Shown: positions 12,695 through 34,046 of the stretch, piece after piece | Layout: each line of letters opens with the position of its first letter | How positions within the stretch are numbered: the first letter of the stretch is position 1 | Assembly: GCF_001570405.1 (NCBI RefSeq) | Contig: NZ_BBYM01000019.1 | Span: forward strand, 250,323-314,322 | Direction: 5' to 3' | Length of the DNA stretch: 64,000 nucleotides | Origin: Microtetraspora niveoalba | GTDB lineage: Bacteria; Actinomycetota; Actinomycetes; Streptosporangiales; Streptosporangiaceae | Made by a program: the position numbers and the translations under genes | Notes under the pieces: generated by a model | Databases searched by the model: none | What the model was told of the DNA's origin: nothing | The model's input: the letters and a program-made list of their open reading frames with translations, nothing else

Positions 12695-14440
12695 TCAGGA
12701 GACGGCAGCCTTCGGCTCCTCGAGCAGGTGCTTGAGAGCGCGGAGGAACAGTGCGGCGTCCCTGCCGTTGATCAGCCTGTGATCGTAGGCGAGCCCGATG
12801 TCGACGACCGTCCGGCTGACCACCTCACCCGCGTCGAGCCGGAGCTCGGCCTGGGGGGTCGTCACCGCGAGCGCGCACACGTGACCCGGGAAGATCAGCG
12901 GGATCGCGAGCGTGACGTCGCCGTCGTGATGCAAGGTCACGACGATGTTGGCCCCGGCCAGGTCGCTCTCGCGGAAGTTCCCCGTGACCGCCGCCAGGCG
13001 GTACTCCATCAGACGGGTCGCGACTTCCCGAACCGTACGGCGGGCGGCATCGTGGACGACCGGGACGTAGAGCCCCGCGCCGGCGTCCATCGTGACGCCG
13101 ACGTGCGGGGCCTCCGCCGTCCTGGCAGAACCCTCACCGACGAGCGTGGCGTAGAACAGCGGGAACGCCTCGTGAAGCCGGGCCGCCGCGCAGGTCACGA
13201 GTTCGGGCAGGCCGACCGGCCGCCTGATCTCCCGGGTCAGCCGGGCCCCCATCTCCAGCGCCGCCCCGATGTCGATCTTCACGGCCGTGTACGCCGCCGG
13301 GATGGTCTCGTGCGAAGAGCGCACCGCCCGCGCCACCGCCCGTTGCACGCGCGAGAGCTCGTACGGCGCGCCCGTGGCGTCGGCGGCGGGACCGACGGGC
13401 ACGGAGCCTGTGGGTCCCGAGCCTGTGACGGCGAGACCAGTGGCAGCCGGACCCGCGAGGGCGGAACTGGTGGTGGCAGGAGCGGGACCGGTGGCGACAG
13501 GACCGGCGACGGTAGGGCCAGTGGTAGCCGCCCCATCGGGCGCTGGGCCATCGGGCGCTGGGCCATCGGGCGCTGGGCCATCGGGCGCGGGACCGTCGGA
13601 TGCGGGGGCGGCGGGCGCGGGGACGGGTGCGGGGGGCAGCGTACGACCGGCCATGAGCCGTTCGACATCCGCCCGGCGCACGACGGAGACGCCGAGTGCG
13701 CGCACCTCCACCGGGTGGATGCCGAGCTCGTCGATCAGCTCCTGGGCGGGCACGGTGATCAGAGGCTCCTGAGGCATCCCCCCGCCAGGTGCCCGGCCCG
13801 CCCCGAACCCGGCATCGCCCCCGAACGGACCATTCCCTGACGGAGAATTCGCTCCGGGCGCTGAACGCCCGGTGGACGTGTGAGCCGTGTCCGCTGACTC
13901 ATGCCGGACTGGGATCGCCCCGCCACCGAGACCACGGCCGAAAGCGCCATCGGAGCCACCGGAAGCGCCGCCAGGACCACCAGGACCACCACCAAGACCA
14001 CCACCAGGAGCACCGGGAGCACCGGGAGCACCGGCGATATCAAGGGCAACACCACCAGGACCACCGACGGTGCCGCCAAGACCTCCAAGACCTGCAAGAC
14101 CGCCAGGACCACCAGGACCGCCATCACCAGCACCGGGAGCACCGTTGAGATCGGGGGCGGGGGCGGCGTTCCCGGGTGTGCCCGACGGTAGGGGCGCGGG
14201 CCGCTCTCCTTCCGTCGTGAGGCGGGCGATCACGGCACCGGGCGGGCAGTCGGCGTTCACTGGAAGCGTGTGCCAGACGAACCCGTCCTCCTCGGCGACC
14301 AGTTCCTCCGTGGCCTTGGACGTCTCCAGGAGCACGATGGGATCGCCCGCCCCTGCCCGCTGCCCGTCCCCGACGATCCACTCGACGACGACGTACGAGG
14401 TGTCGTTGCTGTTGAACTTCGGCACCCGGATATCAGTCAC
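12695..14440 (-). CDS. E2 acyltransferase of a 2-oxo-acid dehydrogenase complex, atypical catalytic motif
   Basis: 581 aa. An N-terminal lipoyl domain has lipoyl Lys42 in ETSKATEE. A long Gly/Pro/Ala linker follows, with collagen-like GAP repeats. A peripheral-subunit-binding domain spans ~LITVPAQELIDELGIHPVEVRALG...RRADVERLMAG. A second linker contains APDGP repeats. The acyltransferase domain covers the last ~225 residues. In standard E2 the active site is HxxxDG; here it reads H554-R-L-I-N558-G, so the catalytic Asp is Asn. This E2 would carry the acyl group from E1 on its lipoyl arm. Whether it transfers to CoA or to a carrier protein is open. GTG start, overlapping the E1 beta stop by 8 nt; last gene of the leftward operon. 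No E3 gene is present nearby. Confidence 0.88.
   Translation of the reverse strand: MTDIRVPKFNSNDTSYVVVEWIVGDGQRAGAGDPIVLLETSKATEELVAEEDGFVWHTLPVNADCPPGAVIARLTTEGERPAPLPSGTPGNAAPAPDLNGAPGAGDGGPGGPGGLAGLGGLGGTVGGPGGVALDIAGAPGAPGAPGGGLGGGPGGPGGASGGSDGAFGRGLGGGAIPVRHESADTAHTSTGRSAPGANSPSGNGPFGGDAGFGAGRAPGGGMPQEPLITVPAQELIDELGIHPVEVRALGVSVVRRADVERLMAGRTLPPAPVPAPAAPASDGPAPDGPAPDGPAPDGPAPDGAATTGPTVAGPVATGPAPATTSSALAGPAATGLAVTGSGPTGSVPVGPAADATGAPYELSRVQRAVARAVRSSHETIPAAYTAVKIDIGAALEMGARLTREIRRPVGLPELVTCAAARLHEAFPLFYATLVGEGSARTAEAPHVGVTMDAGAGLYVPVVHDAARRTVREVATRLMEYRLAAVTGNFRESDLAGANIVVTLHHDGDVTLAIPLIFPGHVCALAVTTPQAELRLDAGEVVSRTVVDIGLAYDHRLINGRDAALFLRALKHLLEEPKAAVS
13533..13592. repeat. 15-nt tandem repeat, about four copies, in the E2 linker
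   Basis: The unit CCATCGGGCGCTGGG occurs three times exactly (13533-13577) and a fourth time with changes at its end (13578-13592). On the coding strand it gives repeated APDGP pentapeptides in the flexible linker. In-frame unit length means copy number can vary without breaking the gene. Confidence 0.85.
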
Positions 14441-15512
14441 GAAGGGCCTCCAGCACCGCGTCGTAGATGGCGGACTCCTGCACGAGCACGCGGCTCTCCA
14501 GGTGGGTGGCGGCGGGGATCACGCTGTCGGCGGAGCTGATCTGGACCACGGGCCGCCGCAGCTCGCGCCACATCAGCCGATGGATGCGGTGCGCGACCTC
14601 GCTCCCCCAGGTGCCGCCTTCGGTTCCCTCCTCCACCACCAGTACGGCTCTCGCCGCGCGCAGCCCGGCCCGCAGCCGCGCGGCGCCGGAACCCTGCACC
14701 CCGGGCGAAGCCGACAGGCTCGAACCCGGCGACGCGGGCGAGTCGGCGTCGTCGAAGATGTCGAACGGGTACAGCCGCGAGGGCACGTACAGGCAGCAGG
14801 TCACCTCGTGCTCCAGCAGCAGGGCGCGCATGGCCCGGGTCGCCCGCTCCACCATGCCGCCGGGCGCGACGATGACGCAGTCGGCCGCCTCCGGGTCGTC
14901 GAGGAAGACGCGCGCGACGCCGACCCCCGCGTTCCCCGCCGCCACCATGTCGTACCGGAACGGCTCGAGAACGTCGAACATGGTCCGGGTGTAGAGCACC
15001 TTGTCCTCGAAGAACACGGACGGCTCGCCCGAGGCCAGCATGGCGCCGACGACCGCGCGGTTGTCGTGCAGCGGTGACATCTCATAGACGGACAGCCCCG
15101 GCACGCCGATGAAGTGCTTCTGCATGCTCTGGCTGTGGGTCGGCCCGTACCCGCGTCCTCCTCCGGTGGGGCAGCGGACGACCATCCTCATCGGCACGCG
15201 GGACCCGTACATCGAGCCGGACTTGGCGGCGAAGTTGACGATCGGGTCGAAGGCGAGCGCCACGAAGTCGCCGAACATGATCTCGACGATGGCCGCGTCC
15301 CCGCAAAGGGCGAGGCCGGCGGCCAGTCCGGTGATGCCGGCCTCGCTGATGGGCGTGCCGAGCACACGGCCGGGAAACCGGCTGGACAGCCCCTTCGTGA
15401 TCTTGAACGCGCCTCCGTAGGGATCGAGGATGTCCTCGCCGATCACGTAGGTCGTGGGGTGGGCCTCCAGGACACCGTGCAGGGCCGCGTTGAGATTCTC
15501 CGCTACGCGCAT
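14433..15512 (-). CDS. E1 beta subunit of a 2-oxo-acid dehydrogenase
   Basis: Pairs with the E1 alpha gene upstream to form the thiamin-diphosphate-dependent decarboxylating E1 component. 359 aa from the ATG at 15512 (MRVAENLNAALHGVLEAHPT). Transketolase-like pyrimidine-binding domain features are present: VIGEDI, GTPISEAGITGLAAGLAL, EIMFGDF, and PTGGGRGYGPTHSQS. The C-terminal transketolase domain follows, after an 18-residue Ser/Pro-rich stretch that looks like an insertion. The start lies inside the end of E1 alpha (10-nt overlap; a GTG 9 nt farther upstream is possible). Substrate cannot be told from sequence. The setting next to NRPS genes suggests a role in making an acyl starter or extender rather than central metabolism. 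Confidence 0.88.
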   Translation of the reverse strand: MRVAENLNAALHGVLEAHPTTYVIGEDILDPYGGAFKITKGLSSRFPGRVLGTPISEAGITGLAAGLALCGDAAIVEIMFGDFVALAFDPIVNFAAKSGSMYGSRVPMRMVVRCPTGGGRGYGPTHSQSMQKHFIGVPGLSVYEMSPLHDNRAVVGAMLASGEPSVFFEDKVLYTRTMFDVLEPFRYDMVAAGNAGVGVARVFLDDPEAADCVIVAPGGMVERATRAMRALLLEHEVTCCLYVPSRLYPFDIFDDADSPASPGSSLSASPGVQGSGAARLRAGLRAARAVLVVEEGTEGGTWGSEVAHRIHRLMWRELRRPVVQISSADSVIPAATHLESRVLVQESAIYDAVLEALRD

Positions 15513-16429
15513 GGGTCCCACCTCGACTGCGGGCGGGCGCAGACCTCCTCGACGAGCGCCGCCACGCGGGCCCGCTGGGCCTCGTCCGCGCGGGCGAACC
15601 GGCGGGGGTCGGCTTGCGCGAGCCGCCGGTACCAGTCGTGGGCCTCGGCGTCCCGCACCACCTCGCGGGGACGGGTGTCGTCACCCTTGCTGTGCGGACC
15701 GAGCCGCTGGGTGGCGAACTCGACGACCAGCGGCCGGTTCTCCAGCCGCACCTCGGACACGAGCGGGGCGAGCTCCTCCCTGATCAGGGTGACGTCGGAG
15801 GTGTCCACGCGGTAGTGACGCGCTCCGAACGCCTCTGCCCTGCCCCGTACGGTGCCGGCCATCTGCCGGGCGGTCGGGGTGGACTGGGCGATCCCGTTGT
15901 GCTCGACGACCACGAGGAGCGGCAGCCGCCAGAGCGAGGCGATGTTGAGCGCCTCGTAGACGGCGCCCTCGCCCCAGGTGCCGTCGCCGATGTAGACGCA
16001 GGCCAGGGAGCCGGGCGAGGTGTTCTTCAGGTGCAGGGCGACTCCCGTGGCCACCGGGAGGCTCTCCCCCTGCACGCCGGTGGACATGTAGCGGTCACGG
16101 AAGATGTGCTGGCTGCCGCCGACCCCGCGGCAGACCGCTCCCTCCCTGCCCATGATCTCGGCGAGCAGCCCGGCCGGGTCCTCGAAGCGCGCGAGGTAGT
16201 GGCCGTGCCCCCGATGGTTGCTGAAGACGTAATCCGTCTCGCCGAGCAGCGGACGGAGGGAGACGGGCACGTACTCCTGCCCGAGGCAGGTGTGCGTGGT
16301 GCCGTCGATCCGCCCCTGGCCGAACAGGTCGAGCAGAGCCAGCTCGAAGTGCCTGATCAGGAGCAGCAGGTCGAGATCGCCGTCGTCCGGCAACGGCGGG
16401 CGGGCGAGTACGGCGGAGGACTCGGTCAC
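15503..16429 (-). CDS. E1 alpha subunit of a 2-oxo-acid dehydrogenase
   Basis: 308 aa from the GTG at 16429. The ThDP-binding motif GDG...N is intact: GDGTWGEGAVYEALNIASLW followed by RLPLLVVVEHNG. The regions HTCLGQEYVPV and GVGGSQHIF are typical of the alpha subunit. The C-terminal helical region is present. GTGA overlap with the C-T didomain stop couples their translation, so the enzyme is probably made alongside the NRPS components. An upstream ATG-containing frame is just a continuation of the reading frame over the C-T gene. E1 proteins in natural-product loci are known to make acyl-CoAs from keto acids (for example the phenylglyoxylate step of phenylglycine biosynthesis); a similar role is inferred here. 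Confidence 0.9.
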   Translation of the reverse strand: MTESSAVLARPPLPDDGDLDLLLLIRHFELALLDLFGQGRIDGTTHTCLGQEYVPVSLRPLLGETDYVFSNHRGHGHYLARFEDPAGLLAEIMGREGAVCRGVGGSQHIFRDRYMSTGVQGESLPVATGVALHLKNTSPGSLACVYIGDGTWGEGAVYEALNIASLWRLPLLVVVEHNGIAQSTPTARQMAGTVRGRAEAFGARHYRVDTSDVTLIREELAPLVSEVRLENRPLVVEFATQRLGPHSKGDDTRPREVVRDAEAHDWYRRLAQADPRRFARADEAQRARVAALVEEVCARPQSRWDPCA

Positions 16430-18039
16430 CGGCCACCGTCCCCGAAGGCCGGGTCCGGCCCGGCGCCGACCAGGGCCGCTCCGGAACCACTCGCGACCGC
16501 GACGTTCCCGGGCGTGCCGGAACCGGGGGTGCCGGAACCGGACGCACCGGAACCGGGCGTGCCGGAACCGGACGCGCTCCCGGAACGCGCGACGCTCTCC
16601 ACCACCCCCGCGATCGTCGGCGTGTCGAAGAAGACGTCGAGCGACACCTCGATGCCCAGACGCTTCTGCATCCGCGCGATGATCTGCGTGATCGTGAGCG
16701 AGTGGCCGCCGAGGTCGAAGAGGTCCTCGTCGTCGCCGATCTCGTCGATCCCGAGCACCTCCTGCCAGATGGCTCTGATCTCGTCGGCGAGCCCGCTCGG
16801 CTCCGTACGACTGTCGCCGGTCAGGATGTCCCCGAGCATCGAATCCGGATTTTTCATGATCTGTTTGAGGTCCTTCACTATCTGGGTGCCCCCCGAAAGG
16901 GCGCGCGGGCTGTACTGCGTGATCACGTCGAGGCCGTCGGGACCGTCGATCGCCTGGATGTGCAGGACGCTGCGGACGGAGCCGTTGAACACCGCCCAGT
17001 CGACCGTCGTCCGCAGCCCGGCGAACTCGGGCGCGGGCCTGCGCCTGCGGTAGCTCACCGAGACGGGCGCCATCGCCGTACGAGGCCGGAGACCGCGAAC
17101 GGCCCGGGCGAGCGGCACCGGCCGGAACCGGTACAGCTCCCGCAGGTCCGCGCGTAGACGGGCGGCGAGTTCGGCGACGGTCATACTCGGCGTCGGCGTC
17201 GACGCCACCGGTAGTTCGTTGACGTAGAGGCCGATGTGATCGCGGGTCTCGTGTGTCCGCGTCGACATGTCGACGGCGCACACCGGCTCCGCGTTGCCGT
17301 ACGCGAACAGCAGGGCGTGCACGGACGCGAGGAAGAGCTCGAAGCGCGAGACGTCCCGCGCGCCGGACCCGTCCGGCAGCTCGGCGCGGAAGGTGAGGAT
17401 CGCCCCGTCCTCCGCCCCTCGCGACCGCCCCGGCCCGTCCGGCGAGGAGGTCAGGCCGGGCAGGGCCACGTCCCCCGGCTCCCGCCAGCGGGTCCGCCAG
17501 AAGTCGCGGGCGTCGTCGATGAGTTCCGCGACCCGCTCGCGGTCGGCCGCCGCATGGTCGGCGTACGTGCCCTGGAGCGGCGTCACCGGAGATCCGTTGT
17601 AGAGCGCGGCCAGATCGCGGACCAGGACGTCCTTGGACTCGCCGTCGAAGACCAGATGGTGCGCCACGATGATCAGGGCATGCCGGGCGGGGCCGATCCG
17701 GGCGATCCGGAACCGGGCCAGCGGCCCCGTCCGGACGTCGAACGGCCGCCGGATCTCCGCGCGGACCAGGTCGTCGACGTCTCCCGCGAGGGTCACCTCC
17801 ACGCTCGGAGGGGCGGCCGGCACCTCAACCGGGACGCCGTCACGCTCGTCGACGGCGGTCGAGAGGACGGGATGGCGGCCGATCAGCTCTTCGCACGCCC
17901 GGACCAGCCGGGGCACGTCGAGCAGCCCGTCGAAGGTGACCAGCAGCGGCATGCGGTACGCCGAGCCCGCCCGCCCCATGCGCTCCGTGATCCACATCCC
18001 GACCTGGGCGTACGACGCCTGCGGCGCTGTGGTGCTCAT
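16426..18039 (-). CDS. NRPS condensation-thiolation didomain protein
   Basis: 537 aa. An N-terminal condensation domain (residues ~5-415) has an intact HHxxxDG motif, HHLVFDG with His127-His128. A peptidyl carrier domain has LFDLGGHSLT, with phosphopantetheine Ser447. A Ser/Gly/Thr/Pro-repeat tail (GSGTPG units) ends the protein. It has no adenylation domain of its own, so its carrier must be loaded in trans, most simply by the acyl-AMP ligase gene that overlaps it by ATGA at 18036-18039. The ATG at 18039 is preferred because upstream sequence in this frame is antisense-like to the ligase frame. It joins two acyl or aminoacyl thioesters; substrates are unknown. Confidence 0.88.
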   Translation of the reverse strand: MSTTAPQASYAQVGMWITERMGRAGSAYRMPLLVTFDGLLDVPRLVRACEELIGRHPVLSTAVDERDGVPVEVPAAPPSVEVTLAGDVDDLVRAEIRRPFDVRTGPLARFRIARIGPARHALIIVAHHLVFDGESKDVLVRDLAALYNGSPVTPLQGTYADHAAADRERVAELIDDARDFWRTRWREPGDVALPGLTSSPDGPGRSRGAEDGAILTFRAELPDGSGARDVSRFELFLASVHALLFAYGNAEPVCAVDMSTRTHETRDHIGLYVNELPVASTPTPSMTVAELAARLRADLRELYRFRPVPLARAVRGLRPRTAMAPVSVSYRRRRPAPEFAGLRTTVDWAVFNGSVRSVLHIQAIDGPDGLDVITQYSPRALSGGTQIVKDLKQIMKNPDSMLGDILTGDSRTEPSGLADEIRAIWQEVLGIDEIGDDEDLFDLGGHSLTITQIIARMQKRLGIEVSLDVFFDTPTIAGVVESVARSGSASGSGTPGSGASGSGTPGSGTPGNVAVASGSGAALVGAGPDPAFGDGGR

Positions 18040-19514
18040 GCCCGGGCCCGCAATGCCCGCTTGTCCACCTTGCCGCCGTTGTTCCTGGGCAGCGCGTCCA
18101 TGGTCACGATCTCGGAGGGGATCTCGTGCCGGGCCAGCCGTTCGCCGAGGAAGGCCCGCAGCGTGGGCGCGGACACCGGGGCGGCCTCGCCAGGGCGCTG
18201 CCCGCCCGCCCCGGCCGGCCGTTCCCCGGGGGCGCGCAGCACGACGGCCGCCGCGACCGCCGCACCGAGGACGGGGTGGGGCACGCCGTACGCGGCCGCC
18301 TCCACCACGGCGGGGTGCGCGTGGAGCGCCTCCTCGACCTTGAGCGTGGAGACCTTGAACGCGCCCGACTTGATCACGTCGCTCTCCCTGTCGACCAGGT
18401 AGAGGTAGCCGTCCTCGTCGAGCCGGCCGAGATCGCCCATCCGGATCCATCCGTCCCTGAAGACGGAGGCGGTCGAGGGGTCGTTGTAGTACGAGCGTGG
18501 CGCGGCGGGCGAGCGCATCCACACCTCGCCGGTCTCCCCCGGAGGCAGCACGTCACCGTCGGGCGAGACGACGCGCACCGCGCCGCCCACGGCTGCTCTG
18601 CCGACCGAACCCGGCCGCTCCGGGTCGACGATCATGATGGTCTGGGCGGGGGCCGCCTCGGTCGAGGTGTAGTAGTTCGTGATCGTCGCATTGGGGAACA
18701 TCCCGGCCAGGCCGGTCGCGACGGCCGCCGGCAACGGCGCGGCGGCGGAGCCGAGCAGCAGCACGCTGGACAGGTCGTGGCGCTCCCCCCGGCCGAGCAG
18801 CTCGATGGCCATCGCGGGGACCAGGAACACCGTCCCGGCACGATGCTCCGCGATGAGCCGCGCGAAGCGATCCGGAGTGAAGACCGGCAGGGTCACCACG
18901 GCCGGGTGCGCGTTGAGCGCGTTGACCAGCATCATCTGGCCCGCGTTCGTGCCGATCGGGAAGGCGTGGACCAGGTGCCGCGAGTGCGCGAACGGCCGCA
19001 TGGCCGGACGGCGCGGCCGCAGCAGCGCGCCGAAGGCCAGGTTGGCGTGCGTGGCGGCGACGCCCTTGGCCGTTCCCGTGGTGCCCGACGTGTAGAGGAT
19101 CTGCGCGATGCCGTGCGGGTCGTTCGGCCTACCGGACGGCTCGGCGGAGCCCAGGGGCAGCTCGCCCAGATCCCTGATGACCATGGACGCCGAGCAGTGC
19201 GCGGCGATCCGTCCGACCTCCGCGGCCGGGGCCCGGTCCGACAGGGGTACGGCCACCGCCCCCGCCTTGAGCACTCCGATGAATGCGATCGCGTAGTCGA
19301 TCCAGCGCGCGCCCGGAAAGATCAGTCCGATCCGTTCGCCGCCGCCCAGCCCCATGGAGAGCAGCGCGCCGGCGACGGCGTTCGACCGCTCCTCCCACTC
19401 CGCGAAGGTCAACTCACCGGCCCCGTGGACGATCATCGCCGTCCTGTCGGGCTCCGCCGCCGCCCTGGCCGCGAGCAAGGCGGGCAACGTCGGGGTTTCG
19501 ACTGCACTTCTCAC
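18036..19514 (-). CDS. Stand-alone acyl/aryl-AMP ligase (ANL superfamily)
   Basis: Activates a carboxylic acid as the adenylate. Motifs seen: P-loop YTSGTTGTAKG, NYYTSTEA (A5), WIRMGDLG (A7), the hinge region after DRESDVIKSGAFKVS, and the catalytic Lys in GGKVDKRAL. Length of 492 aa is normal for acyl-CoA or aryl-acid ligases. The pocket looks acyl-type rather than amino-acid-type because the FDxS core with an Asp for the amino group is absent. First gene of the leftward five-gene operon. GTG at 19514 with GGAG 8 nt upstream; a TTG three bases earlier is possible. It could load the C-T didomain or the free ACP of the rightward operon. Confidence 0.85.
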   Translation of the reverse strand: MRSAVETPTLPALLAARAAAEPDRTAMIVHGAGELTFAEWEERSNAVAGALLSMGLGGGERIGLIFPGARWIDYAIAFIGVLKAGAVAVPLSDRAPAAEVGRIAAHCSASMVIRDLGELPLGSAEPSGRPNDPHGIAQILYTSGTTGTAKGVAATHANLAFGALLRPRRPAMRPFAHSRHLVHAFPIGTNAGQMMLVNALNAHPAVVTLPVFTPDRFARLIAEHRAGTVFLVPAMAIELLGRGERHDLSSVLLLGSAAAPLPAAVATGLAGMFPNATITNYYTSTEAAPAQTIMIVDPERPGSVGRAAVGGAVRVVSPDGDVLPPGETGEVWMRSPAAPRSYYNDPSTASVFRDGWIRMGDLGRLDEDGYLYLVDRESDVIKSGAFKVSTLKVEEALHAHPAVVEAAAYGVPHPVLGAAVAAAVVLRAPGERPAGAGGQRPGEAAPVSAPTLRAFLGERLARHEIPSEIVTMDALPRNNGGKVDKRALRARA

Positions 19515-19824
19515 CAAAACAACTCCGAAAGATCGGATGAAAGCCCCTCCTTACGGAATCGAGGAGGCTTATTGGAAGGATTGTTTCCAGTTGTTCAAGG
19601 GCCGAGTCTGACACGGCGCGACGGCGCGCGACAAGAGGGGGCGTCGATCCCCGCCCTTTCGTGCCGGGCCTTCCCGTTCACTCATAAGGGTTGTGGCCCC
19701 GGCCGTCGCGTGTCAGACTTGACCCTCCAGATAACCGAAAAGAAACTTTCCTATTAGTGCGCCGGCACTCTCCGTCGGCCATTTAGGGCTGCAATCATCC
19801 GATCTGTTGGAGGCGTACGCCTGG
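19515..19824. promoter_or_regulatory. Divergent promoter region of the biosynthetic locus
   Basis: 310 nt between the two operons. It holds an 11-bp inverted repeat AGTCTGACACG (19605-19615) / CGTGTCAGACT (19709-19719). Toward the NRPS side is an AT-rich patch (about 19730-19760) containing TATTAG. The ribosome-binding site GGAGG (19809-19813) precedes the NRPS ATG. Confidence 0.55.
19605..19719. repeat. Widely spaced inverted repeat in the divergent promoter
   Basis: The arms AGTCTGACACG and CGTGTCAGACT are perfect reverse complements. Their centres lie 104 bp apart, close to ten helical turns. Each arm is followed by a similar G/C tract (GCGCGAC, or CGAC on the opposite strand). Candidate paired operator for one regulator controlling both operons. 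Confidence 0.5.
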
Positions 19825-22800: not shown

Positions 22801-25185
22801 CCGGACCAGGAGGTTCCCTTCGAACCGCCCGCCGACGAGATCGAGGAGATCATCGCGGCGGCCTGGTGCGATGTGCTCGGCATCCGGCGGGTGGGCGTGC
22901 TGGACGACTTCTTCGATCTCGGCGGTCACTCGCTGCTCGCCACCCGCGTGGTGGCCCGCCTGCGCCGTGAGCTGCCGCCCGGCGGCCATCCGGTCGGCCT
23001 CATGGACCTCTTCCAGCGGACCACCGTCAGGGAGCTGGCCGAGCTGGCGAGGAGCGGCGCGGGCCCGCGCGGCCTGCTGTACGAGCTGACCGCGCCGCGC
23101 CGCGGAACGGTCACGTCGACCCTTGTCTGCGTGCCGTACGGCGGGGGAAGCGCGGTGGTCTACCAGCCGCTCGCGGACGCGCTGTCGGAGACGTGGCGCC
23201 TGTTCTCGGTCGCCGTCCCGGGACACGATCTCGGGCTGGCCGAGGAACCGCGGCCGCTGGAGGAGGTCGCGCAACAGTGCGTCGAGGAGATCACGGAGAA
23301 GGTGACCGGCCCGCTGGTGCTGTACGGCCACTGCGGGGTCGGAGGCGCGCTGACCGCCGAGATCGCCCGCCGGCTGGAGGCCGCGGGAAGGGAGGTGGAG
23401 GCCGTCTACATGGGCGGCGTCTTCCCCTTCGCCCGCCCGGTGAAGGGGCTGATGGGCCGCTGGGCCAGGCTCACCCGGTTGGAGCGGCTGCGCAGCGACC
23501 GGGCGGACCTCAACTGGCTGACCGCGCTCGGGGCGGACCTGTCGGATCTGGACGACGAGCAGAAGGCGTTCGTCGTCCGCAACATGCGGCACGACGCCCG
23601 GGAGGCCGAGGATTACTTCACCCGGCTGATCGAGACGGGCGCCGACCGGTTGTCCGCGCCGATCATCTCGATCGTCGGCGAGTACGACCCGGCCACCGAC
23701 TACTACGAGGAGCGCTACCGCGAGTGGGAGTTCCTCACTGACACGACCGCCCTGGTCGTCCTGGACGAAGGCGGCCACTATTTCCTGAAATATCGGGCGG
23801 AGGAGCTGGCGGCAGCGGTCACCGCCACCCACCGGGACCTCCCGGCCGCCGAAACGCCCGAGCCCGCCCCGCCCGCCGCGCTCTCCACGGACGGGCGCCG
23901 GACGGGTCCGGCCCGGACGGCGGGGCCCGACCCGACGGTGCGCCGGTTCCTGACGGTCGCCCTGGGCCAGATGGCCTGCCTGATCGGCTCCACGCTGACC
24001 GAGTTCGCGATCCCGGTGTGGATGTACCTCAGGACCGGGTCCATGACGCAGTACGCGGTGCTCCAGATCCTCGCCGTGATCCCGGGCATCCTGGCGGCAC
24101 CGCTCGCCGGCGCGATCGTGGACCGGTCGAGCCGCCGCACGGTGATGGTCGTGGGCAACTCGGCCGCGCTCGCGATCCAGTCGGCCGCCGCGCTGCTCCT
24201 GTGGGCCGGCCACCTCGGCACCTGGCCCCTGTACGTCCTGCTGACCGCGCTCTCCGTCGCGCTGACCTTCCAGCGGCTGGCGTTCACCTCGGCCGTGCCG
24301 CAGCTCGTGCCGAAGCGTTATCTCGGGCACGCGAACGGCGTCGCGCAGACGACGCTGGGCGTCGCGCAGTTCATCGCGCCGCTGGCCGCCGTCGGCCTCC
24401 TGTCGGCGGCGGGGCTGCAGGGCATCCTCGTGCTCGACGTGGTGGGCCATGTGTTCACCCTGGTCGTCCTGGCGCTCGTGGCCTTCCCCGCGACGATGGC
24501 GCACCGCCGCAGGGAGACCGTCGGCCGCGAGATCGCGGAGGGGTTCCGGCTGTCGATGGGCAACCGGAGCTTCCGCGCCATGGTGATCTTCTTCGCCCTG
24601 CTCTCGCTCGGACTGTCGCCGGTGTTCATGATGTACTCGCCGCTCGTGCTGTCATTCGGCACGCTGACGGACGCGGGCGCGATCGCGCTCGTCGCGGGAG
24701 CGGGGGCGGTTTCCGGCGGCCTGACGATGGCCGTGTGGGGCGGTCCCGCGCGCGGGCGGATGCGCGCGATGCTGCTCACCACGTCGCTCATCGCCGCGTC
24801 CTGCCTGGTCGTGGGCCTCGACACCTCCCTGGTCCTGATCGGCGTCGGCGCCTTCGGCGTGTCGTACGGCCTCGCCCTGGTCAACGGCATCTACGCGACG
24901 ATCATCCAGGTGAAGGTGCCGCAGCGGTTCCACGGCCGGGTGTTCGCGCTCAACCAGATGGTCGCCTGGTCGACGATCCCGCTCGGGGTCGGCGTGATCG
25001 CCCCGCTGGGCACCCGGCTGCTCGGCGACATCGGGACGATGTACCTGGTCTTCGCGGGATTCATCGCGGCCGTCACCTTCGGCGCGCTCCGCACCCGCGT
25101 CCTGGCCCGCTTCGACGACGAGGTCCCGGACGCCACCCCCGACGATCTCGTCGGGCTCGAACGGCGAGCTCGGAAGACGGCATGA
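19825..25185 (+). CDS. NRPS module C-A-T-TE fused to an MFS transporter
   Basis: 1786 aa from the ATG at 19825 (GGAGG upstream; a TTG at 19807 is also in frame). Domains: condensation ~5-430 with HHIAGDG (His145-His146); adenylation ~470-965 with YTSGSTGRPKG at 648-658 and NHYGPTEATIG; carrier ~1005-1070 with GGHS, Ser1036; thioesterase ~1092-1340; then ~1371-1770 a complete MFS transporter with about 12 hydrophobic segments. The TE nucleophile motif is GHCGVG: Cys1170 stands where Ser is usual. The Asp (GEYDPATD) and His (EGGHYFL) are present. Aligned by eye, the A-domain pocket reads D-F-T-K-L-L-H-I-G-K, near the known aspartate code. A C-A-T-TE module and its exporter in one chain would put product release at the membrane. 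Confidence 0.92.
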   Translation: MLAISDIPLSLGQERLWFLHELNPNDASYNICVTERLRGPLDAVALEHALGAVVRRHEVLRTRYPAVDGSPVQVIDNAVPVLERVAAPSEERAAELVAELTNRPFDLAEGPVIRTRLITLTGPGDSAASTGGETGMEHILVVVLHHIAGDGWSLGVLFRELAAHYRAFLDGTPPRVPDLPMRYADHAIRQRARDRAEEHDSSLAHWKERLAGVPVLALPTDRQRPRTRSSRGGCVAHELPAALTERLTRLARAERVTLFMLLLAGFQTELSRYSGQTDFCVGSPVAARDDEETEHLIGFFLNTLAIRADLSGDPAFRDLLRRTRSTVVEALVHKGTPFDRLVTELGVERDLSRTPVFQTQFSLRSETNDGLDLAGVTAERYDPGFQQAKFDLSLEILPAGDVLKAFFVYSADLFHRETVERFAANFETLLWSVVAAPETPISELELVAPAEREIIAEWSACPAVPEPPAPTLPEMVATTARRFPGTVAVRYGDDALTYAELDARAGTLAARLRALGVGRDVPVGIRLEQSLDQAVAILGVLKAGGAYVPLDPEQPAERLRHMLQGAAVLIAAAEGAGTPGAQDAQGGRVAAGGAALPPEPDFAGPVVDPGGALIRKAAPGAPGTGDADAGDGLTWPPPSPDDLAYVIYTSGSTGRPKGVAVQHRQVMNYLADVHHRFGVTEGGNFALLQSLTFDFGMTVFYLSLMTGGTLHMLPSRVSAPELAASMPGIDYLKMTPSHLAALAADVDARALLPRRLLILGGEGSGWEWARELAALGACRVVNHYGPTEATIGVTTYEVGADTEPAGPITPIGRPLGHARIHVLDARLRPVPVGVPGELCVGGDRLARGYLGRPDLTAAAFVDSERHGRIYRTGDLARWLPDGTLEFLGRHDLQVKIRGYRVELGEVDEALRLCPGVAHAVTDARGGELVAYLVAGDATDRADRPGVAELRRDLGTRLPDYMVPTRYVWLDELPLKGHGKVNRAALPDPEDDRPDQEVPFEPPADEIEEIIAAAWCDVLGIRRVGVLDDFFDLGGHSLLATRVVARLRRELPPGGHPVGLMDLFQRTTVRELAELARSGAGPRGLLYELTAPRRGTVTSTLVCVPYGGGSAVVYQPLADALSETWRLFSVAVPGHDLGLAEEPRPLEEVAQQCVEEITEKVTGPLVLYGHCGVGGALTAEIARRLEAAGREVEAVYMGGVFPFARPVKGLMGRWARLTRLERLRSDRADLNWLTALGADLSDLDDEQKAFVVRNMRHDAREAEDYFTRLIETGADRLSAPIISIVGEYDPATDYYEERYREWEFLTDTTALVVLDEGGHYFLKYRAEELAAAVTATHRDLPAAETPEPAPPAALSTDGRRTGPARTAGPDPTVRRFLTVALGQMACLIGSTLTEFAIPVWMYLRTGSMTQYAVLQILAVIPGILAAPLAGAIVDRSSRRTVMVVGNSAALAIQSAAALLLWAGHLGTWPLYVLLTALSVALTFQRLAFTSAVPQLVPKRYLGHANGVAQTTLGVAQFIAPLAAVGLLSAAGLQGILVLDVVGHVFTLVVLALVAFPATMAHRRRETVGREIAEGFRLSMGNRSFRAMVIFFALLSLGLSPVFMMYSPLVLSFGTLTDAGAIALVAGAGAVSGGLTMAVWGGPARGRMRAMLLTTSLIAASCLVVGLDTSLVLIGVGAFGVSYGLALVNGIYATIIQVKVPQRFHGRVFALNQMVAWSTIPLGVGVIAPLGTRLLGDIGTMYLVFAGFIAAVTFGALRTRVLARFDDEVPDATPDDLVGLERRARKTA

Positions 25186-25219
25186 GAAGCACCGGAACCC
25201 CGGCACGGAAAGGGACGAC

Positions 25220-25456
25220 ATGCTGAGAGAACGACTGGCGGAGCTGGTGTCGCAATCGTGCGACGGCGAGATCTCCGCCGCCGAGGCCCTGGAGGCGACC
25301 GTGCCGCTGTCCTATCTCGGCCTCACCTCGCTGGCCCAGATGCGCCTGATCGACACGCTCGAACGGGAGTACGGCGTGGAGGTCGACCTCGGCGGCGACA
25401 TCGCGTTCCTCGACAGCGTCGACGGGCTGGCCGCGTGGGTGTCGGCGGCGCGGTGA
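25220..25456 (+). CDS. Free-standing acyl carrier protein
   Basis: 78 aa. The phosphopantetheine site is Ser37 in LGLTSLAQM, with Thr where Asp is usual in the DSL motif, a variant common in NRPS/PKS-associated carriers. A helix-rich acidic profile fits. AAAGGGA lies just upstream of the ATG, 34 nt after the NRPS stop. It is a likely partner of the stand-alone acyl-AMP ligase or of the free C domain encoded next, whose GTG overlaps this stop codon (GTGA). Confidence 0.9.
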   Translation: MLRERLAELVSQSCDGEISAAEALEATVPLSYLGLTSLAQMRLIDTLEREYGVEVDLGGDIAFLDSVDGLAAWVSAAR

Positions 25457-26757
25457 TCTCGTTCTCGGGCACACGCTCCGGCAGGGCGCCGCTCACCTGG
25501 GGCCAGCGCGCGATCTGGGACGCCATCCGCCGGACGGCGCCCGACGACCACTACTTCAACTTCGGCCGGGTGCTGGAGGTGCCGCGGGGCGCGCGGCCGG
25601 CCTCGGCGGCGCACGTGTCGCGCGGCATCGGGCTGCTGGTCGAGCGGCACGAGGCGCTCCGCACGCTGGTCGGCCCCGGGCCGTGCCAGATCCTCCACGA
25701 CCGGGGCGCGCTGCCGGTCCGCGTCGCGGCGGGCGCCGACCCGGCCGCCGTCCTCGCGGAGCTGTCCGCGACCGCCTTCGACTACGAGCACGAGTGGCCG
25801 CTGCGGGTCGCGCTCGTGACCGGCGGCGGCCTCCTCTCCGAGGACGAGGTCACCCACGTGGTGCTCGTCTTCTGCCACATGGCCGCGGACGGGCTCGGCG
25901 CGGAGCAGGTCGTGCGCGACCTGCGGCTGTTCCTCCTGCGCGGCGCGCTGCCCGGCGGCGCGCCGCCGCAGCCGCTCGACCTGGCCCGATGGCAGGAGTC
26001 CCCGGGCGGCAGGAGGCAGGCGGCGGGCGCGGCGGCCCTTTGGGAGCGCGAGTACCGCAGGATCCCGGCCACGATGTTCGGCCTGCCGTCCGCAGCAGAG
26101 GAGCGGCCGCCCATCCGGCGCGCCGCGCTCACCTCCCCGGCGATCGACCTGGCCGCCCAGCGCCTCGCCGTACGGCACGGCACGAGCACCTCGACCGTTC
26201 TGCTCGCGGCGGTGAGCGCGCTCGTCGCCGAGGTGACCGGCCACGGGACCGTCGCCGTCCTGCCGATCGTGAGCAACCGGTTCGGCCGGGACACCCGGAC
26301 CGCGGTGACCACCCTGTCGCAGGAGGGGCTGTTCGTCCTCGGGACCGGCTCCGGCACGGCGCGCGGGACCGCGTTCGCCGACCTGCTCGCCGCGGCCCGC
26401 CCGGCGGTGCTGCGGGCCTACCGGAGCGGCTACCACGACCCGGGCGACAGGGAGCGGATCGCCGCCGAGACGAGCCGCGAGCGGGGCGTCCCGATCCACC
26501 CGTACTGCTGTTTCAACGACATGCGGTTCACCGAGCGGGCGACCGACCACGACGACGAGCGCATCCGGCGGGCGCGGTCGGAGACGTCGCTGACCTGGCC
26601 GCTCAGCCAGGACGAGCTCAACTGCCGGTTCTGCGTCCACGTGACCGACGCGGCGCGGATCTCGGTCACGGCCGACACCCGGTGGCTCGGGACGGCGGAC
26701 ATCGAACGCTACCTGCTCGGCCTGGAGCGGCTGCTCGTCGAGGCGGCCCTGCGATGA
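25453..26757 (+). CDS. Stand-alone condensation-domain protein with altered motif
   Basis: 434 aa, a single condensation-type fold (WGQRAIWDAI near the N-terminus, ERHEALRT at ~50). The HHxxxDG motif reads CHMAADG: Cys141 replaces the first His, while the second His142 and the DG are kept. Since the second His is the catalytically important one in this family, activity may persist. It overlaps the ACP gene before it (GTGA) and the gene after it (ATGA). It may condense the ACP-bound acyl group with an amine, or act as an acyltransferase on a free product. Confidence 0.85.
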   Translation: MISFSGTRSGRAPLTWGQRAIWDAIRRTAPDDHYFNFGRVLEVPRGARPASAAHVSRGIGLLVERHEALRTLVGPGPCQILHDRGALPVRVAAGADPAAVLAELSATAFDYEHEWPLRVALVTGGGLLSEDEVTHVVLVFCHMAADGLGAEQVVRDLRLFLLRGALPGGAPPQPLDLARWQESPGGRRQAAGAAALWEREYRRIPATMFGLPSAAEERPPIRRAALTSPAIDLAAQRLAVRHGTSTSTVLLAAVSALVAEVTGHGTVAVLPIVSNRFGRDTRTAVTTLSQEGLFVLGTGSGTARGTAFADLLAAARPAVLRAYRSGYHDPGDRERIAAETSRERGVPIHPYCCFNDMRFTERATDHDDERIRRARSETSLTWPLSQDELNCRFCVHVTDAARISVTADTRWLGTADIERYLLGLERLLVEAALR

Positions 26758-28688
26758 CCGGGCCGGGGATCTCCGGGCCCGGATCGGTGCGCGCCTACGC
26801 CACCGCCACCTCGTGCGCGCAGGGCGAGTCGCTGGAGTTCCGCCTGGACGGCCCGGACGAGCCGGGCGCGACCGCCGAGCTGGGCGTGACCGTCCATGAC
26901 GCGACGTGCGACCGGCTCATGCTGGCGGCCTCCGTACGCGGGCCGTCCTGGCGGCTGGAGGTACCGCCGGACTGGCCGAGCTCGCTCTACCGCGCCCGTT
27001 TCGTCTCCGGCCCGCCCGAGCCCGACGTGCCCGTGCCCCGCGCCACGGGCGACCTCCCAGGTTCGGGGGCCTCACCGGACGACGAGGTCTACTTCGTCGT
27101 ACGGCAGGCCGTGCCGGGAACCACGTCGCCGATCCTCGTGTCGATCCCGTTCGCGACGTGGCAGGCGTACAACCGGGCGGGCGTGCCCGGGGAGAGCATC
27201 TACTGGACCGAGCAGCCGGACCGCGCCGCGCGCGTGTCGTTCGACCGGCCCGGCGGAGGGCCGCCGCCCGAGCGCTGGGAGGACGGCATGCTGCGCTGGT
27301 TCGCCCCGGCCGGATACACGGTCGAGTACTGCTCGGGCCTGGACCTCGACCCGGATCTGCTGTCCGGCTACCGGCTGCTCGTGGTCAACGGGCACGACGA
27401 GTACTGGACGGCCGGGATGCGCGACGCGTGCGAGGAGTTCGCCCGGCGCGGCGGGAACATCGCCTTCTTCTCCGGTAACACCTGCTGGTGGCAGATCCGG
27501 ATGGAGGGCCGGACCATGGTCTGCCACCGCGACCCGGTGACCGACCCCGTGGAGGACCCCGGCCTCACCACGGTCGAGTGGTCGAGCGCGCCGGTCTCCC
27601 GCCCGGAGAACACGCTGACCGGCGTGAGCTTCCGCAACGGCGCCGGCGCCTGGGGGCCGTACATGCCACTGATGAGGGAGGAGTCGTACACCGCCAGGTT
27701 CGCCGCGCACTGGGCGTTCGAGGGCACCGGCCTGACCGACGGCGACAAGTTCGCCCAGGGAGCGATCGGCTACGAGACCGACGCGGCCGAGTTCACCGAG
27801 ATCATGGGCGTGCCCCGGGCCACCTGCCGGGACGGCACACCGCCGTCGTTCGTCGTGCTCGCGACGGCCGACCTGCGGCACTGGAGCGCCTGCGGACAGG
27901 GCGGCTGGGCCACCATGGGCGTCTTCTCCCTCGGCCGCGGCACGGTCTTCAACGCCGCGACCATCAACTGGGGCAACACGCTGCACGACCCGGTCGTCGA
28001 CCGGATCACGCGGAACGTCCTCGACCGGTTGTCCCGGCCGTCCCCGCCCGGCTGGGAGGTGATCGGCCCGTCCGGCGACATCCGCGCGCTCGCCGCCTGG
28101 CGCTCCACGTTGTACGCCGTGGACACCGGCGGCACCCTCCTGACCCGCGAGCTGTGCGGGCAGAACCTGCGCTGGCAGCCGATCGGCTCGGCGGGCGGGG
28201 TGCGCTGCCTCGACTCCCCCCGGGAGGCCGCCGCCGGACTGGGCACCGGCCTGTACGGCGTCACCGCCGGAGGCGTGCTGCGCTACCGCGAGGCGACCTC
28301 GGATCCGGCGGACTGGACCGACGTGGGACCGGCCCCGGAGGACACGATCGCGCTCGCGGTCGGCGACGGCGCGTTCTTCGCGGCCACGTCGGCCGGGCGG
28401 TTGTGGACGGCGTCGTTCGCCGATGTCGCGTCGGGATCACCGGTCTGGCGGGACGCGGGCGACTCGGGCGGCGCGATCTGCCTGAGCGGGAGCAACGGCC
28501 GCCTCTACGCCCTCGGGGCGGACCACCGCGTCCGCACCCGGCTGCCGGTGACCGGCCCGGCGCCCTGGGCCGACCTCGTCGAGGCGCCGGGCGCCGCGGC
28601 GTTCACCGCCCACGCGGGCCTGCTCGTGTCGGCGGGCAACGGCCAGGAGCTGAGGTGGCGGACCGCTCAGAAGCCGACCGGGCCGTAG
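26754..28688 (+). CDS. N,N-dimethylformamidase large-subunit-like protein with C-terminal propeller repeats
   Basis: 644 aa. Residues ~100-430 resemble the C-terminal domain of the N,N-dimethylformamidase beta subunit, a class-I glutamine-amidotransferase-like fold (SIPFATWQAYNRAGVPGESIYW, LVVNGHDEYWTAGMRDACEEF, NIAFFSGNTCWWQIR, GVFSLGRGTVFNAATINW). The Cys in SGNTCWW and the HDEYW segment are candidate active-site features. Residues ~440-644 are repeated WEVIG...ALAAWRSTLYAV-type units, likely a tectonin-like beta-propeller. No signal peptide is seen. It is translationally coupled to the C-domain gene (ATGA), so it probably acts on the pathway product, for example by cleaving or forming an amide. 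Function is inferred; the family has few characterised members. Confidence 0.75.
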   Translation: MTGPGISGPGSVRAYATATSCAQGESLEFRLDGPDEPGATAELGVTVHDATCDRLMLAASVRGPSWRLEVPPDWPSSLYRARFVSGPPEPDVPVPRATGDLPGSGASPDDEVYFVVRQAVPGTTSPILVSIPFATWQAYNRAGVPGESIYWTEQPDRAARVSFDRPGGGPPPERWEDGMLRWFAPAGYTVEYCSGLDLDPDLLSGYRLLVVNGHDEYWTAGMRDACEEFARRGGNIAFFSGNTCWWQIRMEGRTMVCHRDPVTDPVEDPGLTTVEWSSAPVSRPENTLTGVSFRNGAGAWGPYMPLMREESYTARFAAHWAFEGTGLTDGDKFAQGAIGYETDAAEFTEIMGVPRATCRDGTPPSFVVLATADLRHWSACGQGGWATMGVFSLGRGTVFNAATINWGNTLHDPVVDRITRNVLDRLSRPSPPGWEVIGPSGDIRALAAWRSTLYAVDTGGTLLTRELCGQNLRWQPIGSAGGVRCLDSPREAAAGLGTGLYGVTAGGVLRYREATSDPADWTDVGPAPEDTIALAVGDGAFFAATSAGRLWTASFADVASGSPVWRDAGDSGGAICLSGSNGRLYALGADHRVRTRLPVTGPAPWADLVEAPGAAAFTAHAGLLVSAGNGQELRWRTAQKPTGP

Positions 28689-29311
28689 ACGGCGGCCGCC
28701 GCGCCGGTCGTCATGGCCCAGTAGCGGTCGCCGTAGGACCAGTGCCACCACTCGGTCGGATAGTTGACCAGCCCGGCCTCCTCCAGCGCGGCCGCGAGGA
28801 TCTTGCGGTTCTGCCGGGCGTCGGCGCCGATGCCGGGCGCGTCCGTGTAGCACGCCCCGCCGCTCTGCTCGGGGTTGTCGTTCACGGCGGTGCCCATGTC
28901 GAGCTCGACGCCGTCGTCGTCGCACAGCGTGAGGTCGACCGCCGCCCCGGCGGTGTGCGGCGCTACCTCGATCGGCGAGACGTACCGGCTGGCCGCGCTG
29001 TGCAGTTCCTCGGGCGGCATCCCGGGGAACGCCGTGCGGAGCTCGTCCTTGTAGTCCTCGAAGTACTTCCGCTGGAGCGCCGGCGGGCGGTACCCCTCGA
29101 CGACCACGATGTGGCATCCGGCGGGCAGCAGCGCCTGCGCGGCCTCCAGCCGGGTGAGCACCCCTTCCCGCAGGTGCGCGTACGCGCCGGCGTCGTCGGC
29201 GAGGCGCCCGTCCACGCGGAGCCGGCCGCGGACGTCGCGGAGCGGCTCGCCGCACTCCTCGACGGGCAGGGAGGTCACACGGGGATCGGAGATGAGGACG
29301 ATTTCCGGCAT
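28667..29311 (-). CDS. VanX-like D-Ala-D-Ala dipeptidase (peptidase M15D)
   Basis: 214 aa zinc D,D-dipeptidase family protein. The residues expected for zinc and catalysis are present: PHTAGAAVDLTL (His and Asp ligands), EWWHWSYGDRYWA (catalytic Glu and His ligand), and the substrate Arg in VVEGYRPP. VanX usually has SxHxxGxAxD; here the first Ser position is Ala-Pro. The ATG at 29311 is preferred over a TTG two codons upstream. Its 3' end overlaps that of the formamidase-like gene by 22 nt in convergent orientation. It could be peptidoglycan housekeeping or a detoxifying or maturing peptidase for a dipeptide product of the locus. No vanH or vanA homologue is nearby, so vancomycin resistance is unlikely. 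Confidence 0.85.
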   Translation of the reverse strand: MPEIVLISDPRVTSLPVEECGEPLRDVRGRLRVDGRLADDAGAYAHLREGVLTRLEAAQALLPAGCHIVVVEGYRPPALQRKYFEDYKDELRTAFPGMPPEELHSAASRYVSPIEVAPHTAGAAVDLTLCDDDGVELDMGTAVNDNPEQSGGACYTDAPGIGADARQNRKILAAALEEAGLVNYPTEWWHWSYGDRYWAMTTGAAAAVYGPVGF

Positions 29312-30564: not shown

Positions 30565-30610
30565 CGGCCGCGTCTCCTCTCGTCACGATCCGCTAACGGC
30601 GTGTTTCTTT

Positions 30611-30625
30611 TAATAAAGTTTATTG
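30611..30625. promoter_or_regulatory. Candidate ROK operator between regulator and ABC operon
   Basis: TAATAAA-G-TTTATTG, a 7-1-7 dyad with one mismatch and an AAAGTTT core. The 14 bases to its right match the right flank of the operator upstream of the second ROK gene at 9 positions, ending in TTAGC in both. Very AT-rich against its surroundings. Confidence 0.65.
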
Positions 30626-30724
30626 TTAGTTTAGCCCCAGCCGCCCCGGAGGCAAGCGATCAGGCCACGGGACGCGCCGACCGAGCGCCACCCCGACGTG
30701 AAGCCGGGAAGGGAGAAACCCAAC

Positions 30725-32059: not shown

Positions 32060-32063
32060 CGCC

Positions 32064-33934: not shown

Positions 33935-34046
33935 CCCGCCCTTCACCACCAGTGCGCCGAACCACCGGCGCCATCCACATCACCTCGTACGGCTCCGGCA
34001 CATCGCGGGAGCCGTACCACGACGAATCTTGGAGCCGAAGACAGCC

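Follow-up and report, generated by a model that had tools for sequence, protein, structure and literature searches.

A biosynthetic gene cluster at positions 12695-28688 of a 64,000-nucleotide stretch of the Microtetraspora niveoalba genome (the window; RefSeq assembly GCF_001570405.1, contig NZ_BBYM01000019.1, positions 250,323 to 314,322 of the forward strand) was analyzed by comparison with related genomes. The cluster combines nonribosomal peptide synthetase (NRPS) parts with E1 and E2 components of the 2-oxo-acid dehydrogenase type. With somewhat better than an even chance, its product would be a short acyl-(glycolyl)-peptide, in which an acid X, a glycolyl unit and an Asp-like residue are joined, released by a cysteine thioesterase (Cys-TE), and exported by a major facilitator superfamily (MFS) transporter fused to that thioesterase (TE). 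Among known glycolyl-NRPS pathways, the cluster stands out by the probable replacement of an adenylation (A) domain and by the fusion of a Cys-TE to an exporter.

A conserved cluster of two divergent operons

Gene calls and Pfam matches resolved the cluster into two divergent, coupled operons (Table 1). The left operon, on the minus strand, consists of a ligase, a protein with condensation (C) and carrier (T) domains (C-T), E1 alpha, E1 beta, and E2, with successive overlaps of 4, 4, 10, and 8 nt. The right operon, on the plus strand, begins with a C-A-T-TE-MFS protein, followed after a 34-nt gap by an acyl carrier protein (ACP), a stand-alone C domain (C3), and a dimethylformamidase (DMFase)-like protein, with a 4-nt overlap at both the ACP/C3 and C3/DMFase-like junctions. 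An earlier reading of the window without database searches (the sequence-only reading) had named all of these parts, counted a single NRPS A domain and a single acyl-AMP ligase against three C domains, and described overlaps of 4-10 nt on the left and mostly overlapping genes on the right, all of which agreed with our calls. Its range of 12695-29311 enclosed a real cluster and, at its end, a flanking gene (28667-29311).

Relatives were sought with C3 as the query in 345 genomes of the order, including the window's own (8.47 Mb in 98 contigs, sharing its genus with G081 and G080). At a cut-off of E <= 1e-15, C3 was matched in 150 of the 345 genomes, and homologues above 370 bits were present in 61 of the 344 others. 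Of these 61 loci, 49 were fetched, 12 genomes being left out, and their genes were called with a simple script that had learned codon usage from the window; loci L028-L038, which were partial or the same places as later loci, were excluded from the counts. All eight core genes (E2, E1 beta, E1 alpha, C-T, ligase, ACP, C3, and DMFase-like) lay within one 20-kb stretch in 44 of the 49 loci. Among the five incomplete loci, L047 and L059 stopped at contig ends, L069 and L071 had E1/E2 just outside the stretch, and L087 was of the C-A-T type described below. The ligase and the ACP were on opposite strands in 46 of 47 loci, and the ACP adjoined C3 in 48 of 49. Because the core genes kept together and the ligase and ACP strands remained opposed, the arrangement is not due to chance, and the cluster represents a genuine family, conserved among soil actinomycetes.

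Window-type A, TE, and MFS domains occurred together in the stretch in 15 of the 49 loci; other loci had a one- or two-module NRPS in that position, with Gly-like and DTED-type codes. In L136, L137, L138, and L139, the C-A-T-TE-MFS gene was located beyond E2 when the search was carried further out. Twelve of the 49 stretches, two of which reached contig ends (L047, L066), had no NRPS A domain, and three genomes among these twelve (G212, G144, G150) encoded an A-T-TE-MFS protein 69-85% identical to that of the window elsewhere. It is possible, a little short of an even chance, that the product of the eight core genes is no more than an acyl-glycolyl starter, passed to differing NRPSs of which the C-A-T-TE-MFS protein is one exchangeable partner; this is compatible with the acyl-(glycolyl)-peptide proposed here. 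The A-less stretches and the distant A-T-TE-MFS proteins agree with such an exchange, as do the NRPSs with an extra T domain, 73% identical to the T of C-T, at another site in G203, while the NRPS genes adjacent to the core in other loci, sometimes beyond E2 (L136, L137), weigh against it. Separation of the two operons in related genomes, which the sequence-only reading had considered contrary evidence, was found only for the NRPS gene, in some genomes; the core genes mostly stayed together.

The C-A-T-TE-MFS gene also stood apart from the core in three genomes (L127, L128, L129). The G212 protein was 85% identical to that of the window, yet its core proteins were about 46-72% identical, which suggests separate transfer of the C-A-T-TE-MFS gene and the core. 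In the window's own genome, a second, diverged copy of the cluster (L096, G000:C6:187261-207161) had extra NRPS modules and no DMFase-like gene.

The C-T module and its glycine-module relatives

The C-T homologue was a full C-A-T module in four loci: L087, from a genome of the same family as the window's, L220 and L227, on two Embleya plasmids, and L221, on plasmid pCLA1 of Streptomyces clavuligerus. Their C domains were 40-44% and their T domains 53-67% identical to those of the window, and in a six-protein alignment the window C-T showed a 573-column gap following residue 411, at the place that the A domain occupies in the relatives. The A codes were DILQLGVIWK twice and DIVQIGVVWK twice, both of which we take to be close to the glycine code. 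No E1 alpha gene was found on the stretches of these four relatives. Of the 54 A-less C-T genes, each from a different locus, 51 had both the ligase and an E1 alpha (58% or more) on the same stretch, while L095 and L132 had the ligase on the stretch and E1 alpha in the next one (L225 and L133, respectively); all 53 ligase-linked A-less genes therefore had E1 alpha on the same or the next stretch, and L092 had an A-less C-T with neither. Loci L048 and L052, in which C-T was broken by the gene caller, stand outside these 54 genes and outside the count of genes upstream of E1 alpha given below.

Since the C-A-T relatives were without E1/E2 on their stretches and the A-less C-T genes were accompanied by E1 alpha, the E1/E2 cassette probably replaces glycine activation. 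We tentatively propose, at clearly less than an even chance, a complete module swap, in which a glycine module lost its A domain, a ketose-fed E1/E2 came to load glycolate on the same carrier, and an amide became an ester, with release by an ObiF-like Cys-TE, possibly as a four-membered ring, and an exporter of its own in one protein. Several observations weigh against the proposed replacement. The C-A-T rows clustered together in the tree (81/84), beside the A-less rows, so that the exclusion between A domain and E1/E2 may reflect a single evolutionary event, which could have run in either direction. The L087 genome has other E1 genes: a set at 42-44% lies upstream on its contig, and a different contig carries an E1 alpha at 66-67%. 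In Embleya and S. clavuligerus the E1 alpha search covered only the cluster stretches.

As to gene layout, the S. clavuligerus locus L221 has three proteins, a ligase-carrier-C fusion, a C-A(Gly-like)-T module, and a C-A(Asp-like)-T-TE-MFS module, with no E1/E2 on the stretch.

The E1/E2 cassette and the origin of the two-carbon unit

In a tree built from 59 of 90 rows, the window E1 alpha and 53 other rows formed one group (support 98/97), most members of which adjoin NRPS, polyketide synthase (PKS), ketosynthase, or carrier genes. The nearest row outside the group was RenH of renieramycin (99/92); two Rhizobium E1 alpha proteins encoded beside enoyl-CoA hydratase genes and two E1 alpha proteins of the window's own genome also fell outside. 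The best NCBIfam match to a pyruvate dehydrogenase (PDH) E1 alpha reached 185 of 394 bits, far under the cut-off. Being set apart from own-genome and catabolic E1 alpha proteins and missing this cut-off, the window protein did not behave as part of a housekeeping 2-oxo-acid dehydrogenase.

The same group includes L159, which has E1 alpha, an ACP, a fused E1 beta/E2, a UvrA-like protein recognized by eye, and an NRPS in which three C and three T domains accompany a single A domain, a layout we take to be that of tetrahydroisoquinoline clusters. By this layout rather than by sequence, the E1 alpha group looks like the glycolyl-carrier cassette of quinocarcin and scleric acid. Further features of the Nap/Qnc/Scl type were present, namely a lipoyl E2 with an acyltransferase active site and a carrier adjoining E1 alpha. 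Among aligned E2 rows, all 75 kept the lipoyl Lys, and 79 of 80 kept DHRxxNG, the remaining one having a gap; in 42 of 44 cases, E1 alpha came directly after C-T or after a T split off from it.

The scleric acid proteins SclQ1-4 (ACP, E1 alpha, E1 beta, and E2) are described as homologues of QncM, N, and L, the quinocarcin/scleric acid cassette as drawing its glycolyl unit from a ketose phosphate, and a sclQ1-4 deletion as leaving residual product that was restored by glycolic acid feeding (PMC6335953). The glycol unit of the naphthyridinomycin/quinocarcin type derives from xylulose-5-phosphate (PMC9268379).

The sequence-only reading had proposed that E1/E2 makes an acyl thioester from a keto acid. 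A pathway-specific keto-acid dehydrogenase, converting a 2-oxo acid to a branched or aromatic acyl thioester, would suit the keto-acid dehydrogenase folds of all E1/E2 parts and would have a parallel in pepteridine, where a PDH-like E1 and an E2-carrier-C fusion have a proposed keto-acid source (PMC5384830). The window E1 alpha grouped with neither the Rhizobium nor the own-genome proteins, and its NCBIfam match was poor; we consider this alternative improbable, and the draw on a keto acid probably wrong. The scanned cluster proteins included no E3, as in pepteridine, for which the host's E3 was considered likely to serve (PMC5384830). Weighing against the ketose-derived glycolyl unit, the E1 alpha tree was built without NapB, QncN, and SclQ2, and some of its outgroup branches are very long.

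Three side observations concern the cassette. At 13400-14200, the window E2 has an unusually long Gly/Ala/Pro-rich linker between its lipoyl and catalytic domains. In another genus (L157, L184-L187), the same kind of E1/E2 cassette lies between ACP genes and ketosynthase genes recognized by eye, with no NRPS match in the stretch. In G176, an E1 alpha homologue in a core locus (G176:C1:296530-297387) has one in-frame TAG in the search alignment and is possibly decayed.

The carrier that would receive the glycolyl unit

The T of C-T is likely the glycolyl carrier. In its favour are the exclusion between A domain and E1/E2 and the place of E1 alpha directly downstream in 42 of 44 genes, T being a separate protein in 11. 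The ACP persists in three of the four C-A-T loci (L087, L220, L227), which have no E1/E2 on the stretch, and is therefore not tied to E1/E2. Weighing against T, the carrier tree placed the ACP, not the T of C-T, with ACPs encoded beside E1 alpha elsewhere (93/83, 83 columns), a grouping that favours the ACP as glycolyl carrier. That T lies beside E1 alpha had been considered as proof of its role, an argument weakened by this tree.

With the same glycolyl cassette, the ACP could instead carry a glycolyl starter, while the ligase serves as an in-trans A domain for C-T, so that X (an amino or hydroxy acid) becomes the second unit, before the A-domain residue. This order would account for the place of the window ACP among ACPs beside E1 alpha and for the 4-nt overlap of ligase and C-T in one operon. 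It is harder to reconcile with L087, L220, and L227, which keep ACP and ligase without E1/E2 on the stretch although their module has its own A domain, with the S. clavuligerus ligase, fused to a carrier and C domain, or with the 11 of 42 loci in which T is a separate protein next to E1 alpha, and we regard it as unlikely.

The NRPS, thioesterase, and exporter

The A code of the window NRPS was DFTKIGHIGK, presumably an Asp-like code. Among 43 TE-MFS relatives, 32 had a code of the DFTK-G-H-GK type, eight had a code that we read as Ser-like, and three had others. The TE nucleophile of the window is Cys (GHCGVG), and GHC stood where Ser is usual in all 43 relatives. The best solved match was the beta-lactone TE ObiF1 (E 2.5e-29), with which the window Cys and late Asp align, followed by stand-alone thioesterases such as RifR and by the NRPS TE 8w2c, which we take to be SulM. 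SulM and ObiF share a Cys/late-Asp triad and form four-membered rings (PMC11298585). A simple late-Asp pattern was found in 35 of the 43 relatives. Weighing against a strained-ring product, such a ring is not obvious in the window since Asp has no beta-nucleophile. A siderophore reading, prompted by resemblance to EntF, was not matched by any dihydroxybenzoate (DHB) or hydroxamate gene among the scanned cluster proteins.

The ligase, C3, and the DMFase-like protein

The ligase motifs FPIGTNAGQ and NYYTSTEA were found in 53 and 57 of 59 sequences, respectively; the closest solved ligases are of fatty-acyl, malonyl, and feruloyl types, which is not decisive for acid X. In the C3 rows listed (64 of 68), the second His of the C motif was kept and Cys or Ser replaced the first.

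The DMFase-like protein contains a DMFA2_C domain (240 bits against a cut-off of 27), and a profile of 18 orthologues matched DMFase (E 8e-11) and N-acetyl-(R)-beta-phenylalanine acylase (E 1e-9). Its AlphaFold model had a mean predicted local distance difference test (pLDDT) score of 76.7, with poor regions at 284-310 and 359-386; a fold search returned a lectin-like propeller first and both amidases next, at a low template-modelling (TM) score of about 0.3 and a root-mean-square deviation above 10 A. H214 and E216 were invariant in 31 sequences and aligned with H519 and E521 of DMFase, whose E521A mutant is inactive (PMC7686228). Of the 2-Tyr-1-Glu iron site, E216 is conserved together with the nearby H214, while both Tyr positions fall outside the aligned stretch. 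The protein is probably an iron amidase. No DMFase-like gene was seen on the stretches of L087, L096, L161, and L221.

Proposed pathway

The sequence-only reading was right to see a single biosynthetic unit in which E1/E2 supplies an acyl group, a ligase activates an acid, and an A domain adds one residue. In the pathway we propose, a ketose phosphate would provide E1 alpha and E1 beta with a two-carbon unit, which E2 would hand over as a glycolyl thioester; the receiving carrier would most likely be the T of C-T, in the position of a glycine module. The ligase would activate acid X and load it onto the ACP, and the C domain of C-T would join X to the glycolyl hydroxyl to form an ester. The NRPS C domain would then join the acyl-glycolyl unit to the A-domain residue (presumably Asp-like), and the Cys-TE would release the product, possibly closing a strained ring, for export by the fused MFS domain. 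C3 and the DMFase-like amidase would act before or after assembly. The scheme holds one C domain more than it needs, which counts against it. The sequences themselves establish the domain content, the operon structure, the conservation, the E1 alpha group, the exclusion between A domain and E1/E2, and the Cys of the TE, whereas the steps of the pathway are inferred.

Leader motif, features, and right-hand flank

The motif CATCCGATCT, noticed by eye, occurs just upstream of both operons (Table 1). With at most one mismatch, it was found 5' of 26 of 47 ligase genes, compared with none of 47 stretches shuffled once each, and 5' of 3 of 52 NRPS genes, compared with 2 of 52 shuffled; these counts come from related loci, which are not independent. 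With at most two mismatches, it was found 5' of 15 of 52 NRPS genes (9 of 52 shuffled), but 14 of the 15 matches began no more than 30 nt from the start codon. L066-L078 gave no match at fewer than two mismatches. The motif is possibly a regulator site shared by both operons.

Table 1. Coordinates of the cluster features within the window.
Feature	Position	Strand	Remarks
E2	12695..14440	-	N-terminal lipoyl domain (ETSKA) and C-terminal acyltransferase domain (DHRLING), joined by a long low-complexity linker; Pfam PF00364, PF00198
E1 beta	14433..15512	-	Transketolase pyrimidine-binding and C-terminal domains
E1 alpha	15503..16429	-	308 aa, thiamine-diphosphate-dependent type
C-T	16426..18039	-	Condensation domain (HHLVFDG) and carrier (GGHSLT), no A domain between; proposed glycolyl-accepting module
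Acyl-AMP/CoA-ligase-like enzyme (LIG)	18036..19517	-	Start TTG 19517 or GTG 19514
Leader motif CATCCGATCT	19530..19539	-	Just 5' of ligase start
Leader motif CATCCGATCT	19796..19805	+	5' of NRPS start
NRPS C-A-T-TE-MFS	19825..25185	+	One 1786-aa protein; ATG start, in-frame TTG at 19807
NRPS domains (approximate)	C 19840-21183, A 21256-22761, T 22849-23046, TE 23119-23817, MFS 23959-24969	+	
Stand-alone ACP	25220..25456	+	GLTSLA
C3	25453..26757	+	Divergent condensation domain, stand-alone; CHMAADG keeps the second His but not the first
DMFase-like protein	26754..28688	+	Amidase domain (about residues 64-411) and C-terminal beta-propeller

A D-Ala-D-Ala dipeptidase-like gene (28667-29311) lies convergent to the cluster. 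The genome G082 belongs to the same genus and gave no C3 match, yet it has the Lhr helicase, dipeptidase, ROK, sugar ATP-binding cassette (ABC) transporter, and glycoside hydrolase family 3 (GH3) genes, the helicase being separated from the dipeptidase by further genes. Because the dipeptidase gene stands beside the same neighbours there, it belongs to the chromosomal flank, outside the cluster. Its candidacy as a self-resistance gene was rejected, as it stays with ROK, ABC, and GH3 genes in both G082 and G162, neither of which has a C3 match. This neighbourhood, which continues in the window with the ROK regulator, sugar ABC transporter, and GH3 genes at 29404-35501, resembles cell-wall recycling.

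Implications and comparison with known systems

If the proposed replacement is correct, sister clusters with and without the cassette would represent a natural experiment on how an assembly line exchanges an amino acid for a hydroxy acid as building block. Replacing an amide link by an ester link in this manner would be unusual in nature. The swap would be testable with few purified proteins and useful for depsipeptide engineering, and the TE-MFS fusion would offer a simple model of coupled release and export. The family is common in the searched order, yet no product was found for it in the open-licence literature. The sequence-only reading knew of no described pathway with this gene set; no match to the whole set was found in that literature, but the cassette and glycolyl-peptides have already been described.

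Pepteridine of Photorhabdus resembles the window in that E1/E2 feeds a carrier and a C domain, and differs in the proposed transfer of a keto-acid acyl group onto a pterin and in the fusion of T and C to E2 (PMC5384830). The large subunit of the Paracoccus DMFase and N-acetyl-(R)-beta-phenylalanine acylase share the DMFA2_C domain with the window protein, which is distinguished from both by its C-terminal beta-propeller and showed 15-19% identity to them in the fold search. The TEs of ObiF1 (obafluorin) and SulM (sulfazecin) have the Cys nucleophile and late Asp of the window TE (PMC11298585), whereas the latter is fused to an MFS transporter and follows a terminal A domain with an Asp-like code.

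In the naphthyridinomycin and quinocarcin systems (NapB-D, QncL-N), a carrier lies beside E1 alpha as in the window (PMC6335953 for Qnc), and the E1 alpha group holds L159 with that layout. E1 beta and E2 are separate in the window and fused in Nap/Qnc, and no such peptide scaffold genes were seen in the window. Scleric acid biosynthesis was compared by description rather than by sequence. The scl pathway employs an ATP-grasp enzyme and benzoate genes, and the scanned cluster proteins of the window included no scl-type ATP-grasp, anthranilate-synthase-like, 3-deoxy-D-arabino-heptulosonate 7-phosphate (DAHP) synthase, or isochorismatase protein. The window instead has the ligase, C-T, C3, DMFase-like amidase, and Cys-TE fused to MFS. 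The scl cluster of Streptomyces sclerotialus and the window both comprise an ACP, E1 alpha, E1 beta, E2, one NRPS module of C, A, and peptidyl carrier protein (PCP) domains, a TE, and an MFS exporter in two divergent gene sets, and the scl product is an acyl-oxyacetyl-amino acid, like the product proposed for the window (PMC6335953, PMC13307308).

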